Below, piece after piece: positions 24,856 through 31,420 of a stretch of DNA of 39,280 nt. Within the stretch, counting starts at the first letter, position 1. Every line of letters starts with the position of its first letter. The stretch is from the NCBI RefSeq assembly GCF_024808815.1, contig NZ_JANUCS010000017.1:1-39280 (forward strand), in the 5' to 3' direction. Position numbers and translations under genes: made by a program. The notes beneath the pieces are model-generated. The model did no database searches. It was not told the DNA's origin and worked only from the letters and a program-made list of their open reading frames with translations. Source of the DNA: Methanosalsum natronophilum. GTDB taxonomy: Archaea; Halobacteriota; Methanosarcinia; Methanosarcinales; Methanosarcinaceae.

Positions 24856-26574
24856 TTATTTTGCAGGTATGATAAGAGACCTTTCACCGGCTGGTGAGAA
24901 TTCTCTAATTGCTCCACGACCAAATTCTTTTCTTGGCTGTGTGAAGTCAAATGGTAATAAATCATCTGCAAAGCAAATCTTTAGCAGTGGGTTTAATGCG
25001 AATGCATCGCCACGTCCAGCATGTGCAGCTGAAGTGATTGCAGCATATCCACCTTGGTGACCTACGTTCATTGCATAGTTTGGATAGTTAGGTCCACGTA
25101 GTTCAACTGGTGCACCTTCATCAGATTGATATGAAAATACGTTAGTTGCACCACATTGATCTTGTAGATCGTACCCAAAGAAACCTAGACGACCATGTGC
25201 TTCTTTATGCAAATACATAGAGAGATACCATGCTGAAAGACCTGCATTACCATGTCCTGTTGCAATTGCAGTTGCTGCACCAGCTGCAGCTGACATGACG
25301 GTTGCTCTTTGTGAGCCACCAAAGTGGTCCTCAAGTGCAGTTGGGTATTTTTCATAGTTCTCTAGACCATAGATTGTTGATTCTGTACCGATATCTTTAA
25401 TCACATCAATTGTTGGTTTAATTTTGTTGTCAGTACCGGTGTTTGCTGCACCATCGTATTTATCGTTGATGTAATCAATGTCATAGTATAGGTTATCATC
25501 AAGTATGTTGTTTGTATATGCTGCAGTTGCATATTGTGTGAAACCTACACCACCAGACATGTAAGATCCTAACCAGATTTGGTCGTAAAGCATACATCCA
25601 GCACCTACAACTTCTAATGCAATGTTTGCAGGGTCTTCAGGTGTGATTCTGCTTGTTTGTACTATGTCTGATAAGTGACCAAAGGTTAGACCTCCAGGTT
25701 CATTTGGTGCACGCGCACGTCTTGCTGGTAGCATGTCACCCATTGAAACCACTGCTGCGTGTTTTGCAGCATATGATAAATCAGCCACAGCTGCTTCACC
25801 AGCACACATATTGTATGCGGAAATGAAAGACATACCAACTTGCATTGCAATCCATCTGCTAGTTTGACCACCATCAGTTGTTCTGCTTACTACAGTTGGA
25901 ATATGGGCAGCCTGCCATGTGGTTTTACCAATAGATTCCTTTAGTTGTTCAGCTTGTTCTTCAGGGAATTCTTTGTTGATGTCTATAAGGAATTGATCAT
26001 CAATTTCATCTGCGAGGTCATCGTCTCCTGTGAACACTTTGACGTAACAATCGTCTACAAGTGCTGGATGGGTTTCTACCATATATTCCTGAACTACTGC
26101 TCCGCCTGGTAATGCATGATTCAATACTTCTAGATAGTGGTTGATGGTCTCAGGTGTTACTTCAATACCCAACCTTTTCTCTAGTGTCTCGTGAGCCATA
26201 TCTAGACCAACGACACAGGTTCTTCTGATGTCATCCCACATTTGCTGCATTGCTGCATTGTTGACATAGTGAAGATCATCAGGTTCAACCATTATATCGG
26301 TGCCTGATACAAATGATGGAGTGATTGCCCTTTGACCTAAAGGAATACCACCACAATGCATCATTGGATTATAACCAACAAGTCCTCTCTCTTTAGCAAT
26401 CTTTTGTCCTGCTTCTTTCATTTCACGTTTTCTTGGATCTTGGTCAACACCAAGTCTGTGATATTTGTTTGCTTTGTCGGTGATTGAACCGCCGTCTTGC
26501 TTGTTGTCACCGAATTCTTTAGTAAATTTGATTTCAAGCTGCTTTTTGAATTTTCTTTCTCTATCAGTTGTCAT
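24856..26574 (-). CDS. mcrA: Methyl-coenzyme M reductase subunit alpha
   Basis: This 572-residue catalytic subunit binds coenzyme F430 and releases methane from methyl-coenzyme M and coenzyme B. The mcrA signature [15 protein letters not shown] is at 341-355. Modified residues known in other Mcr enzymes have counterparts here: the methylhistidine site His272 (KHAAVV), the 5-methylarginine motif LPARRARAP with Arg285/286, thioglycine Gly467 (GFFGYDL) and S-methylcysteine Cys474 (QDQCGATN). The nickel-ligand region GRTDGG-like [10 protein letters not shown] is present. The arginine is the expected target of the Mmp10 encoded nearby. A strong GAGGTGAT precedes the ATG, and mcrA is the last gene of the operon. 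Confidence 0.99.
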
Positions 26575-26585
26575 TTTGTATCACC

Positions 26586-27344
26586 TCAGTCATTGTATAC
26601 TTTTGGTTGGAAACCATATTCAGTTCTTGTTTCCCATACTCTGTGCACCCATTCAACAGCCTCATCATCATCTCTGAAAGCTACATTGTCTACACGGTAA
26701 ATGGTTGTTCTCTTAGCGGCTTCTTCTTCAGACATTGGTTTTCCAAGATCTACTTTTTTGTCAAGTGGTCTGCCTACTTGATCTTTGTCCATGATGATTG
26801 TACCGTTTTCGAGTCTCCTTCTGTCAAGCATGTCAAACATCACACCATCTTCTTGAAGACGTAATGAGTGACCGTGGACTGTAGCACCTCTTAAACCTGA
26901 GAGTGCAGGACAGCTGATTTCAGTTTCTAATGATTCTTTTGCTAGTTTTTCCATATCTCTCTCACGAGCTTCTACAACTTGTCTTCCTGAGAGCGTACCT
27001 GGATCAACACCCCTAAATTTTATTGCAGCATAGTATGCTCTAAAATATGGTGTTGCTGGAGCATTGTACATAGAGTCTGCAAACTGGACGTATCTAACAC
27101 GGTCCCCAGCTTTAGCTCCTTCTGTTGGTTCGACGAGTTCTCTTATTGAACACTCTGGTTCACCCATTTCAGCTAATGGTGGGTGTGTGCTTGGGTAATC
27201 ACTACCTGGTGCACGATGTCCTAGAACTAATGTCAGGTCTTCATCTGAAATTTCTCTAAGCTTTTCAAGATTTCCTGACATATGCTTTCTTCTATTTTCA
27301 GCAATTATTGTGTTTCCTGGATAAAATTGTGGTTCATATGCCAT
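26586..27344 (-). CDS. mcrG: Methyl-coenzyme M reductase subunit gamma
   Basis: This 252-residue subunit is the gamma chain of the (alpha-beta-gamma)2 reductase. Conserved parts are YEPQFYPGNTIIAENRRKHM, LVLGHRAPGSDYPSTHPPLA, VQFADSMYNAPATPYFRAY and RGVDPGTLSGRQVVEARERD. The start is ATG 27344, preceded by AAGGAGTG; the frame is open three codons further. It sits 12 bp after mcrC and 11 bp before mcrA. Confidence 0.98.
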   Translation of the reverse strand: MAYEPQFYPGNTIIAENRRKHMSGNLEKLREISDEDLTLVLGHRAPGSDYPSTHPPLAEMGEPECSIRELVEPTEGAKAGDRVRYVQFADSMYNAPATPYFRAYYAAIKFRGVDPGTLSGRQVVEARERDMEKLAKESLETEISCPALSGLRGATVHGHSLRLQEDGVMFDMLDRRRLENGTIIMDKDQVGRPLDKKVDLGKPMSEEEAAKRTTIYRVDNVAFRDDDEAVEWVHRVWETRTEYGFQPKVYND

Positions 27345-27356
27345 ATTTAGCACTCC

Positions 27357-27962
27357 TTAATTTTCAATTTCTTTCATTGTAAGTCTTACATCTTTGACGA
27401 GTTTATTTAAAACATCTCTTGTAGAGGTTTCTCCTCTAACAACTCCCGTCACGATTTCCATAACGATTCCTTTTGTTTGGATATTTTTATCCTTTGGTTT
27501 TACTACTCTAGTTAAAATTCCTGCTTTCGCAAAATCTTCAAAATCTACAGGTGGCTGACATACTACTATTGCGGGAATCTCTACATAAGACAAAATTTCC
27601 CTTGCCTTTTTCATAATATGGTCAGGGATATTGCCTAGATGGATTATAGCAAGTTTATGTCTTGATATTTGTTTTATTTCTTCTTGGGATATTCCAAATG
27701 AACCTGATCTCATTTCTACGTCAGGTATTCCAGATCCAGCTTGTAACACAAGTACACTAACCTGGATATCTTGTTTTCTCATTCCATAGGTCAGTTCACA
27801 TACTGGTTTTGTGATATGACGTCTACCCGGACTCATAGCTAGTACTATAACATCGGAACTGCCGGCTTCTGAAAGAGTTCCTCTTTGTGCAAGACCTCCT
27901 CCTCTACCTAGGCCCATTCCATGCCTGCAATCAACTACTTGTGTCCCTCTATCAAACATCAT
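27357..27962 (-). CDS. mcrC: McrC, component linked to methyl-coenzyme M reductase activation
   Basis: This 201-residue protein is McrC, encoded within most mcr operons and reported as part of the ATP-dependent complex that reductively activates the F430 nickel. Family features are the N-terminal QVVDCRHGMGLGRGGGLAQR, followed by VIVLAMSPGRRHITKPVCEL and a Gly-rich VLQAGSGIPD. It is not part of the final enzyme. Two adjacent ATG codons (27962 and 27959) could start it. It lies 6 bp after mcrD. Confidence 0.96.
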   Translation of the reverse strand: MMFDRGTQVVDCRHGMGLGRGGGLAQRGTLSEAGSSDVIVLAMSPGRRHITKPVCELTYGMRKQDIQVSVLVLQAGSGIPDVEMRSGSFGISQEEIKQISRHKLAIIHLGNIPDHIMKKAREILSYVEIPAIVVCQPPVDFEDFAKAGILTRVVKPKDKNIQTKGIVMEIVTGVVRGETSTRDVLNKLVKDVRLTMKEIEN

Positions 27963-27968
27963 ATTAAT

Positions 27969-28472
27969 TCACTTGTTCTCAATATCGTTATCTGATCTAT
28001 TTAAGAAGCATATCTGTTCATCAAGACTTGCTTTTGGATCAAAGAGACCGCGTAAGTTAGGGTCAGCATCTGGACCACGTTTTGCGTAATCTGAAACCGT
28101 GGACCTCTTTGCAATAAAAGTACCTTCTCTGAACTCAAACCCAAAGGGTAAAAGATTTTCACATACCTCTCGTACACGCTCTTTTACTTCAAAGTCGCGA
28201 ATTTCCATTCTGATTCTTCCAACCAGAATTGCTAATTCAAATGTTGTATCATTTATTTGAACTATTTTTCTATCTGGATGCAGAACATTTTCTCCAGTAG
28301 CTGGTCCATAGGGAACTTTGAGAGGTAAACGAGGTCCCTGAATTACTGCCCTTAAAATACCTTCTATTTGATTAAGTTCTAAGAGCAATTTTTGTGCACG
28401 CTCTGGTCCAAGTAATCTTTTAGGAAATATCTCGATTTGTATAGGATTTTTTGTATTCGAAGCAGAAACCAT
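27969..28472 (-). CDS. mcrD: McrD, accessory protein of methyl-coenzyme M reductase
   Basis: This 167-residue protein is McrD, a non-structural protein that associates with Mcr and probably assists assembly or F430 loading. Recognisable segments are IQIEIFPKRLLGPERAQKLL, IQGPRLPLKVPYGPATGENV and LPFGFEFREGTFIAKRSTVS, ending DPNLRGLFDPKA. The ATG follows AAGGTTTTATACT. It lies 21 bp downstream of mcrB. Confidence 0.96.
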   Translation of the reverse strand: MVSASNTKNPIQIEIFPKRLLGPERAQKLLLELNQIEGILRAVIQGPRLPLKVPYGPATGENVLHPDRKIVQINDTTFELAILVGRIRMEIRDFEVKERVREVCENLLPFGFEFREGTFIAKRSTVSDYAKRGPDADPNLRGLFDPKASLDEQICFLNRSDNDIENK

Positions 28473-28493: not shown

Positions 28494-29798
28494 TTAAAGA
28501 GCTTCTGATATTGAACTTATAGGTTCTCTGAATTCTTTGATTGATCCAAACACGTCACCAATTAAACCTGAGGTCTTTTCAATTGTGAACATCTGTGTAC
28601 CTGCATCTAATGATACCGCAGCTGATACACATGGAATTGCAAATCCTCTGGAGTGTCTTGTAACAATGTGGTTTCCATTGAAAATACCTGGTCCACCACC
28701 ACCATAGATAGAGTGGCTGAAGAATGAGAAACCTACAGCTGTACCTTGGACTTTACCAAAGTCACATCCTGGAAGTCCAGTTTCTTTCTCTAAGATATCA
28801 TTATAGTATAATAATGTGGATGAAACATTTTGTGCTGCTCTTCCTGCACCAACGTTAACCATGGTTGCTGCTAAACTACCAGCAGCTGCACATGCATTCC
28901 ACATAGCTACGTCATCAGCTTTGTAGAAATTATATCCAGATGGAGCTGTTTTATCGACTGAAATAACTCCAGCTTCAAGTGCTTTTTCTACAGTTGATTG
29001 GACTACTGTACCTACTGTGCCATCTTTCGCATTATCTTTTACAATATCGTAGACTATGTTGTTAGCATTAAGACCCTGATATGCAAATCCGAGTAATTGG
29101 AATCTCTCAAACATTCCAACTGCATTACCCATTTCATAAATTCCTGCTTGTTCATAAATTGATGAAAGAGCAGCAGCATTCATTGCTTTACGGTTAGTAA
29201 TTGCAGCAATGTGATTTGTCATAATGTTTCTTAATGAGAAACCTAGACCTTCATTTTTCTGAGGGATACTTAAAATTGAGGCTACGTTTCCACCTGCAAG
29301 GTCCATCGTTTGTGGATAACTTCCCCATACTGCAGCTTTAACGTATGGTGCATCAAAGATATCAGTATTGAATTGGTTCATGATTGATTGAACAACTGCA
29401 GCTGCTCCGACTGTAACAGCGGAAACATAATCTGCACCTACGTTTGTCCTTGATGTTGGTACTTGTACTAGAAGTTGTTTTCCACCACCAAGAGTTTCTA
29501 CGTTTGTGTCATCACCATTACTTACTTGGACAAGCTCTTGTACTTCATCCTGAATTGCACCAGCATTACCTACTATGTCATAGTCTAGCTCGTTTCCAAG
29601 AATTTGTCTGCCTTTTCCGCCCATTTTACCTGTAGCAAGGGCTTTTTCGATACCAGCAAGGTTTATTGCAACAGATCTCTTTGTTTCTGTGACAATCTTT
29701 TGAATTGCATCATTTCTTGTTGGAGCAATGTCTATAAGATCGACGCCGCTTTCCAACAGTTTACCTCTGTCGTCATAAATGTCTATTTTTTCAGACAC
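28494..29798 (-). CDS. mcrB: Methyl-coenzyme M reductase subunit beta
   Basis: This 434-residue subunit is the beta chain of the reductase and the first gene of the operon. It begins [20 protein letters not shown]. It contains the coenzyme-B-pocket region [20 protein letters not shown] and the conserved terminal segment [20 protein letters not shown]. The start is GTG 29798, with AGGAGG nine bases upstream (29808-29813). The order B-D-C-G-A is the classic Methanosarcina type. Confidence 0.98.
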
Positions 29799-29832
29799 GT
29801 TTACTTTCCTCCTATTTTTACTTTAAAAATCA

Positions 29833-29944
29833 CTTATTAGGCACATGGTTGTATTCAAAGATTTCATTATGCCACTTTACAGTACATATTGTAGTGTACC
29901 TAATTGTGAGATTGATATGATTCTTTGAAACTCCTCCTAATAAG
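29833..29944 (-). promoter_or_regulatory. Structured leader of the mcr operon (three nested helices)
   Basis: On the minus strand, upstream of mcrB, three complementary pairs nest inside one another. The outer pair is CTTATTAGG/CCTAATAAG (9 bp, plus-strand 29833-29841 with 29936-29944). The middle pair is TTCAAAGA/TCTTTGAA (8 bp, 29854-29861 with 29922-29929) and continues, past a small bulge, with 4 bp more (29864-29867 with 29917-29920). The inner pair is GTACA/TGTAC (29882-29886 with 29895-29899). A full anti-Shine-Dalgarno match AGGAGG (29932-29937) straddles the end of the outer helix and has no start codon at proper distance. This is a candidate RNA regulatory element; function is unknown. 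Confidence 0.6.
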
Positions 29945-29967
29945 CTTATGATAATCATAGATGTATT

Positions 29968-30037
29968 AACTTTTAAAGGTTTTCATTCATATCTTCTGCA
30001 CTTTATTTTGTAATGATAAATAATGCATATTTATAGA
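29968..30037 (-). promoter_or_regulatory. Candidate mcr promoters
   Basis: Two TATA-like boxes precede mcrB on the minus strand. TCTATAAATATGC (30025-30037) would start transcription near 30005, giving a leader of about 207 nt. CCTTTAAAAGTT (29968-29979) would start near 29948, which is just 4 bases before the outer helix of the structured leader and gives about 150 nt. The choice between them is not settled by sequence. Confidence 0.45.
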
Positions 30038-30143
30038 CTCTTTATACTAACATATAAAATTTGTTTTATGTAGATGAATTAACTTTTTATAAAATGATTA
30101 TATATCGAAATTGGTAAACAACACTAAACCAATGAATAGCTGG

Positions 30144-30196: not shown

Positions 30197-31420
30197 ATGG
30201 ATATAGTTGCAGATATTGGTGGAAGTCCTGGAATAGATTGTCAAGGGTTTTGTAAGTACTGTTATTTTAAAAGTGTAAAAGAGGTGCTTCCATTTGGCTG
30301 CAAACATTGTTTTCCATTTCAAAAAGGATGTGATTACTGCACAAGAAGTGTTAAGGAATCCTATCCAGGATTTAATCATCCACAGTATGTAGTTCAACAA
30401 ATAACTCAATCGTTTCATTTAGGGAATGAAAAAATAAATAAAATTACAATAAGCGGTGGAGGAGATATTAGTTGTTATCCAGGACTTTTTGATCTAGTGA
30501 AACAAATAGCACAATTTAATACACCTATTCATCTTGGTTATACTAGTGGAAAAGGGTTTAAAGATAAATCAGAGGCCCATACTTTAATAGAATATGGGGT
30601 AAAAGAGGTCTCATATACTGTTTTTGCTACAGATTTAAAATTAAGAAGAGAATATATGAACGATAAAAATGCACAAGCTTCAATTGATACACTAAAGGTT
30701 TTCTGTGAGCAATGTGATGTATATGCAGCAATTGTTATAGTTCCTGGAGTTAATGATGGAAAAGTTTTGGATAAAACATTGAAGGATTTGGAGGACTTTG
30801 GGGCTAAAGGAGCAATTTTAATGAGATTTGCTAATGAATCGAGTCAGGGTTTGATTTTAGAGAATGCACCAATTTTATCTAATATTAAACCACAAACTAT
30901 TGAAGAATTTGTAAAAACAGTGCATGCATGTAACGATAAATTTGATTTAAGAATTTCCGCAACACCATTAGAAGATCCCTTAATAGGTTCTCCTTTTGCA
31001 ATACGGAACAATAAAAATGCTTTATCTAAGCTACCAAAAGTGAGTAAAGCTGCAACTCTGATAACAGGGTTAATTGCAGCTCCTAGAATCGCTCAAATTT
31101 TTAATGAGTTAAATAGTGATGTGAACATTGTTCCTTTGAATAAAGATATTAGTTGTTTAATTACAATAGATGATTTCAAACACATTGATCTGAAGATGGT
31201 TAAAGAAACTGTAATCTTACCAGGAAGAGTATTTGCCCATGATTCTGAAATGAAAAATATTTTTTTAAAAGATGGGATTGATAGGCTCGTAAGAAGGGGA
31301 CCTGAATCCTTAACATACGATGGTGAAATGTCTATTAGTATGAAGTATGATGAGGTTATAGATTTTGAAATTCAGAAGTTTACTGAACTGATTGAACAAA
31401 TTAATGCCATAGGCACATGA
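30197..31420 (+). CDS. mmp10: Methanogenesis marker 10: radical-SAM McrA arginine methyltransferase
   Basis: This 407-residue protein is Mmp10, the cobalamin-dependent radical-SAM enzyme that C5-methylates an arginine of McrA. The N terminus DIVADIGGSPGIDCQGFCKY contains the radical-SAM motif C15-x3-C19-x2-C22. A second cysteine set, C35, C38, C45 and C48 (FGCKHCFPFQKGCDYC), is the extra metal-binding loop typical of the family. Later come TISGGGDISCYPG, VIVPGVNDGKVLD and ATPLEDPLIGSPFAI. The start is ATG 30197, giving the family N terminus; the in-frame TTG at 30173 lies inside the TATA box. No ribosome site is seen. It is divergent from mcr, whose McrA product is its substrate. Confidence 0.95.
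   Translation: MDIVADIGGSPGIDCQGFCKYCYFKSVKEVLPFGCKHCFPFQKGCDYCTRSVKESYPGFNHPQYVVQQITQSFHLGNEKINKITISGGGDISCYPGLFDLVKQIAQFNTPIHLGYTSGKGFKDKSEAHTLIEYGVKEVSYTVFATDLKLRREYMNDKNAQASIDTLKVFCEQCDVYAAIVIVPGVNDGKVLDKTLKDLEDFGAKGAILMRFANESSQGLILENAPILSNIKPQTIEEFVKTVHACNDKFDLRISATPLEDPLIGSPFAIRNNKNALSKLPKVSKAATLITGLIAAPRIAQIFNELNSDVNIVPLNKDISCLITIDDFKHIDLKMVKETVILPGRVFAHDSEMKNIFLKDGIDRLVRRGPESLTYDGEMSISMKYDEVIDFEIQKFTELIEQINAIGT

Follow-up and report, generated by a model that had tools for sequence, protein, structure and literature searches.

The window analyzed here is a 39,280-nucleotide stretch of Methanosalsum natronophilum DNA (contig NZ_JANUCS010000017.1, positions 1 to 39,280) that carries the genes for methyl-coenzyme M reductase (MCR). 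MCR is the enzyme behind nearly all biological methane and catalyzes the methane-forming as well as the methane-consuming step in archaea. The first gene of its operon, mcrB, lies on the minus strand (29798..28494), and the leader upstream of it is therefore to be read on the minus strand. The operon, its predicted promoter and the elements of the leader are arranged as follows.

24856–26574, minus strand: mcrA, assigned by operon order and sequence
26586–27353, minus strand: mcrG, assigned by operon order and sequence
27357–27962, minus strand: mcrC, NCBIfam profile
27969–28472, minus strand: mcrD, NCBIfam profile
24856–28472, minus strand: remainder of the operon after mcrB (mcrD, mcrC, mcrG, mcrA)
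28494–29798, minus strand: mcrB (methyl-coenzyme M reductase beta), first gene of mcrBDCGA, GTG start at 29798; NCBIfam TIGR03257, E 3.5e-230
29808–29813, minus strand: Shine-Dalgarno sequence AGGAGG of mcrB, from sequence; predicted 92% unpaired with the leader folded
29814–29831, minus strand: A/U-rich spacer separating P1 from the Shine-Dalgarno site, from sequence and fold
29832–29841, minus strand: outer helix P1, 3' arm CCUAAUAAGU, from pairing and sister-species comparison
29854–29861, minus strand: second helix P2, 3' arm UCUUUGAA, pairing with 29929–29922
29864–29867, minus strand: inner 4-bp extension, 3' arm, pairing with 29917–29920; not conserved
29882–29899, minus strand: apical hairpin, GUACA 29899–29895 with UGUAC 29886–29882, 5 bp; not conserved as a helix, 2/5 pairs broken in the sister species
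29917–29920, minus strand: inner 4-bp extension, 5' arm, pairing with 29864–29867; not conserved, 2/4 pairs broken in the sister species
29922–29929, minus strand: second helix P2, 5' arm UUCAAAGA, 8 bp perfect, first 7 pairs conserved
29936–29945, minus strand: outer helix P1, 5' arm GCUUAUUAGG, whose first G pairs with U; 10/10 pairs retained in the sister species
29944–29936 with 29841–29833, minus strand: helix 1 (P1 core), CUUAUUAGG with CCUAAUAAG, 9 bp, perfect
29946, minus strand: predicted transcription start (+1)
29970–29984, minus strand: predicted proximal archaeal promoter, from sequence; BRE-like GAAAACC 29984–29978 and TATA-like TTTAAAAG 29977–29970

Nearly all relatives have a box of similar type in the corresponding position. 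It is this proximal box that relatives retain, which is why a more distal TATA-like box (GATATATAATC, near 30100) was considered but not used. The predicted start is the base that follows 23 nt downstream of the TATA box, in line with the spacing of ~23 nt described for Methanosarcina (PMC11409679). P1 thus starts at 29945/29944, which is +2/+3 from the predicted +1. A second AGGAGG (29933–29938, minus strand) lies in and beside the P1 5' arm, has no start codon nearby and is retained in the sister species. On the other side of the common intergenic region, mmp10 (30197–31420, plus strand; NCBIfam identity) is divergent from the mcr operon. Its product is the MCR-arginine methyltransferase, which acts on an McrA arginine. 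Expression of mmp10 has been reported to drop together with that of mcr (PMC11267899).

The first-pass annotation had described three nested complementary segment pairs (9, 8+4 and 5 bp) upstream of mcrB. All of these are present on the minus strand in the order given, and the minimum-energy fold of the leader includes every one of them, nested in order. When the leader is shuffled by dinucleotide, 5.6% of the shuffles contain a perfect helix of at least 9 bp, and 0.26% contain one that also encloses a second perfect helix of at least 7 bp. By folding energy itself the leader stands out only moderately (z between about −2.4 and −2.6). Of 146 other upstream regions, 7 are equally low, and single-sequence folding energy was rejected as too weak a proof of structure. 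The significance of the leader structure comes from its relatives.

Two sister genomes, in which mcrB is 94–95% identical and the promoter and leader are the same in arrangement, gave three sequences in total for comparison. The 17 outer pairs, 10 of P1 and 7 of P2, are retained in all three (17/17). Two double changes occur, one per helix (U-A to C-G and A-U to G-C), together with two one-sided changes in the outer helices that are tolerated only via G-U pairing on the mRNA strand. An RNA of the opposite strand could not form either of the two G-U pairs, which places the selection on the mRNA strand. Sliding the partners by 1–3 columns lowers pairing from 100% to 29–49%, while the shuffle control for the 17 outer pairs is weak with three sequences (55/500 shuffles attain the score). 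For the full set of 26 pairs proposed earlier, 87% of cells pair, a value that 3/500 shuffles attain, and every loss falls in the inner part, where the 8th pair of P2, the inner 4-bp helix and the apical 5-bp helix lose some of their pairing in the sister species. The covariation check in relatives divides the three-helix proposal. P1 and the first 7 bp of P2 are kept with compensating changes, and the 4-bp extension and apical 5-bp helix are not conserved.

The idea of one long interrupted hairpin in the mcr leader is strongly supported, and as a property of the class rather than of this organism alone. In nearly all mcr leaders examined from Methanosarcinaceae, ANME-2a/c/d, ANME-3 and Methanotrichaceae, a helix that begins at about +1 closes just before the Shine-Dalgarno sequence; across nearly all Methanosarcinia lineages examined it spans from the predicted ~+1 to 10–30 nt before the ribosome site. 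The families taken as ANME-2a, 2c and 2d, for example, have the helices CCAAGAAA/UUUCUUGG, CAAGGGAUUG/CAAUUUCUUG and CGGAAAAUUGC/GCGGUUUUCUG, which start at +1/+2 and end shortly ahead of the Shine-Dalgarno site. Methanotrichaceae leaders pair from the predicted +1 in the 14 that have an identified TATA box, and 10/25 consensus pairs show changes on both sides in Methanothrix. Covariation counts are strongest in Methanotrichaceae and in the genus of the window; within Methanolobus and Methanosarcina they are modest because the arms hardly vary. Conservation is higher in the leader than in the DNA preceding the promoter (0.76 versus 0.42, 0.88 versus 0.73, 0.74 versus 0.57, and 0.81 versus 0.72).

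The position of the helix relative to the transcript was assessed by folding leaders from the end of the TATA box, with TATA boxes picked per genus by motif, such that untranscribed DNA served as an internal control. Over 17 lineages, the mean probability of pairing as a 5' partner is 0.30 at positions −12 to −1 and 0.70 at +1 to +12 from the predicted +1. Pairing increases at the predicted +1 in 16/17 lineages, in one genus (g5) only slightly; Methanococcoides shows a fall instead, and its pairing does not begin at +1. Control leaders are flat (0.39 and 0.43; Mann-Whitney P = 0.002), this set being drawn from 400 kb of a sister genome in which only 17 background leaders had a usable promoter. 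The first 20 nt pair with the last 55 nt of the leader more than they do in shuffles (Fisher P 1.4e-8 over 13 Methanosarcinaceae genera); in the same test, ANME-2a/c/d and Methanotrichaceae individually mostly reach P 0.005–0.07. The lineages are related and not fully independent, so these P values and the Mann-Whitney value are indicative. Averaged by genus, the folding z combines to a Stouffer value of −9.6 (13 genera).

Covariance models built from the Methanosarcina-type, Methanolobus and Methanotrichaceae leaders found exactly one match per genome in 34, 29 and 24 genomes, respectively, and this match was the mcrB leader wherever mcrB had been located. The Methanolobus model also matches the mcr leaders of Methanomethylovorans (E 0.03–0.08), and the Methanotrichaceae model recovers genomes outside its training set (E 2e-10 or better). 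Rfam searches of the window and relatives, at the gathering threshold and with E up to 1, returned nothing above threshold and one sub-threshold SurA match (E 0.1), which we attribute to chance. A search of the open-access literature, with incomplete coverage, turned up no paper on a structured mcr leader, and an earlier description elsewhere is possible. Taken together, we are highly confident that the leader structure is real and conserved. The helices are well supported; the function discussed below, and every transcription start used, we infer.

Several variations on this theme were observed. In 32 Methanosarcina genomes (including locus L083), the 5' arm UCAUUGGGAAAGUGGACACU and the box GCGGUACUUGAU are nearly invariant, which exceeds the needs of pairing alone. 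One Methanosarcina genome (locus L082; G083, contig 1, 109055–109278) carries ~200–250 bp with inverted ends, GTAACTATTCAG ... CTGAATAGTTAC, between the leader hairpin and the Shine-Dalgarno site; this is a natural insertion that splits the leader element from mcrB. Outside the class, Methanomicrobia-type mcr leaders (L182–L194) have a short local hairpin, (U)GUCCC..GGGGAC/GGGAC, at the predicted +1, followed by a conserved GUGCARUAG, with no closed leader and no Rfam match, and are a looser parallel to the closed Methanosarcinia leader.

What might such a structure do? The first-pass annotation had offered a stability element, an attenuator or a ligand-sensing RNA, and the first of these fits best, given a helix that starts at the predicted 5' end, a free Shine-Dalgarno site and a structure that is conserved although no sequence is shared. 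We propose that the leader locks the 5' end of the mRNA as a stability and insulation element, the best-supported mechanism among those considered and one to which we give even chances. The outermost helix would pair the very first mRNA nucleotides with the segment just upstream of the Shine-Dalgarno site. The locked end could then shield the very abundant mcr mRNA from 5'-end-dependent decay, such as that by an archaeal RNase J working 5'-to-3'. Closure of the leader could insulate an A/U-rich, open ribosome site for constitutive translation start, with the apical part free to vary. Predicted folds leave most of the ribosome site unpaired in the window (92%), ANME-3 and Methanosarcina; in Methanohalophilus, as an exception, it is predicted to be buried (2–3% free in L021, L022 and L018, and 10% in L015). 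Conservation of position (from +1), of closure and, in most genera, of an open ribosome site is the anatomy expected of a 5'-end stabilizer and insulator. Against this stand Methanococcoides, which lacks pairing from +1, and the predicted burial of the ribosome site in Methanohalophilus.

Published work bears on this reading in both directions. The mcr transcripts are among those stabilized during methylotrophic growth (PMC5112694), and 5' UTRs are described as stabilizing the methanogenesis mRNAs mtaA and mtaC in Methanosarcina mazei zm-15 at low temperature, according to the account of Cao et al. 2014 given in PMC5378194. Both observations support the stabilizer reading. Stability changes between growth conditions in M. 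acetivorans are reported to show no genome-wide correlation with RNA folding energy (PMC5112694). Moreover, a 'minimal PmcrB', described as the core region only, still supports high expression, which the full M. barkeri promoter does not surpass (PMC11409679). The leader is therefore probably dispensable for high reporter output, and whatever effect it has is likely to be a graded one.

The main rival to the 5'-end stabilizer, possible but doubtful in our view, is a cis-regulatory RNA whose binding by a protein, such as an MCR subunit or an assembly factor like McrC or McrD, adjusts how well the operon is translated or how stable its mRNA is. It would account for an element present once per genome and only before mcrB, and for the strong sequence conservation within some genera such as Methanosarcina. 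It could also draw on a recurrent 3'-side bulge, UCGCU(C), present in 14/14 Methanotrichaceae, 8/8 Methanohalophilus, 3/4 ANME-2d, 5/10 Methanococcoides and 3/26 Methanolobus leaders. This bulge lies between two helices, is invariant in Methanotrichaceae (L163–L177) and is also seen in L135, L138, L025 and L018. It is a possible binding site, although it is not significant as a shared motif, was noticed post hoc and is absent from the genus of the window. No k-mer beats shuffles across 15 lineages, and two candidates for a shared core fell with this result: GGUAC, which is visible by eye in Methanosalsum, Methanosarcina and Methanolobus, and UCGCU itself (Methanotrichaceae, ANME-2d, Methanohalophilus, and some Methanococcoides and Methanolobus). 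A pmcrB-driven tetR reporter transcript, moreover, was unchanged under limiting MCR, an observation at the transcript level only (PMC11267899). A more ambitious version, which we consider unlikely, is an undescribed mcr-specific regulatory RNA, ancestral to Methanosarcinia and common to methanogens and reverse-running ANME, in which a protein or ligand reading the leader would couple the amount of MCR to its assembly or cofactor supply and the +1-anchored stem would act as a stability switch.

We consider it very unlikely that the leader is a riboswitch or thermosensor controlling access to the ribosome site. The leader is a structured 5' UTR ahead of a central metabolic operon, and the full-length fold of Methanohalophilus does bury the Shine-Dalgarno site. 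Purine-rich, Shine-Dalgarno-like 5' arms in several genera had suggested an anti-SD/anti-anti-SD switch, which was rejected when complementarity between the 3' half of the leader and the ribosome site proved no greater than in shuffles (combined P = 0.71, 13 genera). Lineages share no sequence core, the predicted fold leaves the Shine-Dalgarno site mostly accessible in the window, in ANME-3 and in Methanosarcina, and mcr is published as constitutive (PMC11267899). The earlier suggestion of a ligand-sensing RNA is likewise not supported: the element occurs in a single copy per genome and only before mcrB, shows no alternative folding in which the ribosome site is hidden, and has no core sequence common to the lineages.

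Transcription attenuation within the leader, another of the earlier suggestions, has a long folded leader ahead of a large operon in its favor. Archaeal intrinsic termination requires U-rich tracts. By inspection, which is not a statistical test, the window has UUUUU, Methanosarcina UUUU and several genera none, with no matching place among them and no conserved terminator-like feature. The mcr operon is also described as constitutive (PMC11267899), and we consider an attenuator highly improbable. That the segments of this A/T-rich DNA match by chance, or form an inverted repeat at the DNA level, is scarcely credible. In favor of this reading is the moderately low single-sequence folding energy (7/146 background regions equally low); it is already contradicted by the compensatory and G-U-compatible changes on the mRNA strand, by placement at the predicted +1 in 16/17 lineages against a flat control, and by arms that lie ~95 bases apart.

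The structured mcr leader is thus probably a built-in stability and insulation device without an entry in existing catalogues, and its absence from Rfam means that it could become a new family. The upkeep of the abundant mcr mRNA has been little studied, and a conserved folded leader points to post-transcriptional control via mRNA stability, which is testable by compensatory mutants in Methanosarcina. It also has a practical side, as the mcrB promoter is the standard expression part in Methanosarcina. At least some constructs include the leader, listed primers appearing to span it (PMC11549558), and 'minimal' versions are described as retaining only the core region.

Among known systems, riboswitches resemble the mcr leader in that it is a structured 5' UTR ahead of an archaeal gene, and a synthetic tetracycline riboswitch, an artificial device, has been placed in the mcrB promoter leader (PMC3942078). 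Unlike riboswitches, the mcr leader lacks both a shared core and an arm that could pair with the ribosome site; of the marks of a translational riboswitch, neither sequestration of the ribosome site, nor a conserved core, nor an Rfam match was found. Archaeal and bacterial leaders that bind proteins, those of ribosomal-protein operons among them (candidates in PMC7247131), likewise have a structured cis element at one operon, in one copy per genome. The mcr leader shares this pattern of a single cis element found only before its operon, where mcrB was located, but differs in that no conserved binding core was found in it. We know of no protein that binds it. The long mtaA and mtaC 5' UTRs of M. 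mazei zm-15 are also leaders of methanogenesis mRNAs with a reported role in transcript stability (cited in PMC5378194); they belong to other operons, and the likeness drawn here is one of reported function. To our knowledge, no class-wide conservation of the mtaA and mtaC leaders has been described.

The E. coli ompA 5' UTR carries a 5'-terminal stem-loop that slows 5'-end-dependent decay of an abundant mRNA with an open ribosome site, where structure matters more than sequence. The mcr stem differs in scale, closing the whole 100–170-nt leader in most lineages, and in its archaeal host, and its effect on decay is a proposed one. Like the ompA stabilizer, it appears to place a helix at the extreme predicted 5' end of an abundant mRNA, with the ribosome site accessible except in Methanohalophilus and with structure, not sequence, conserved.
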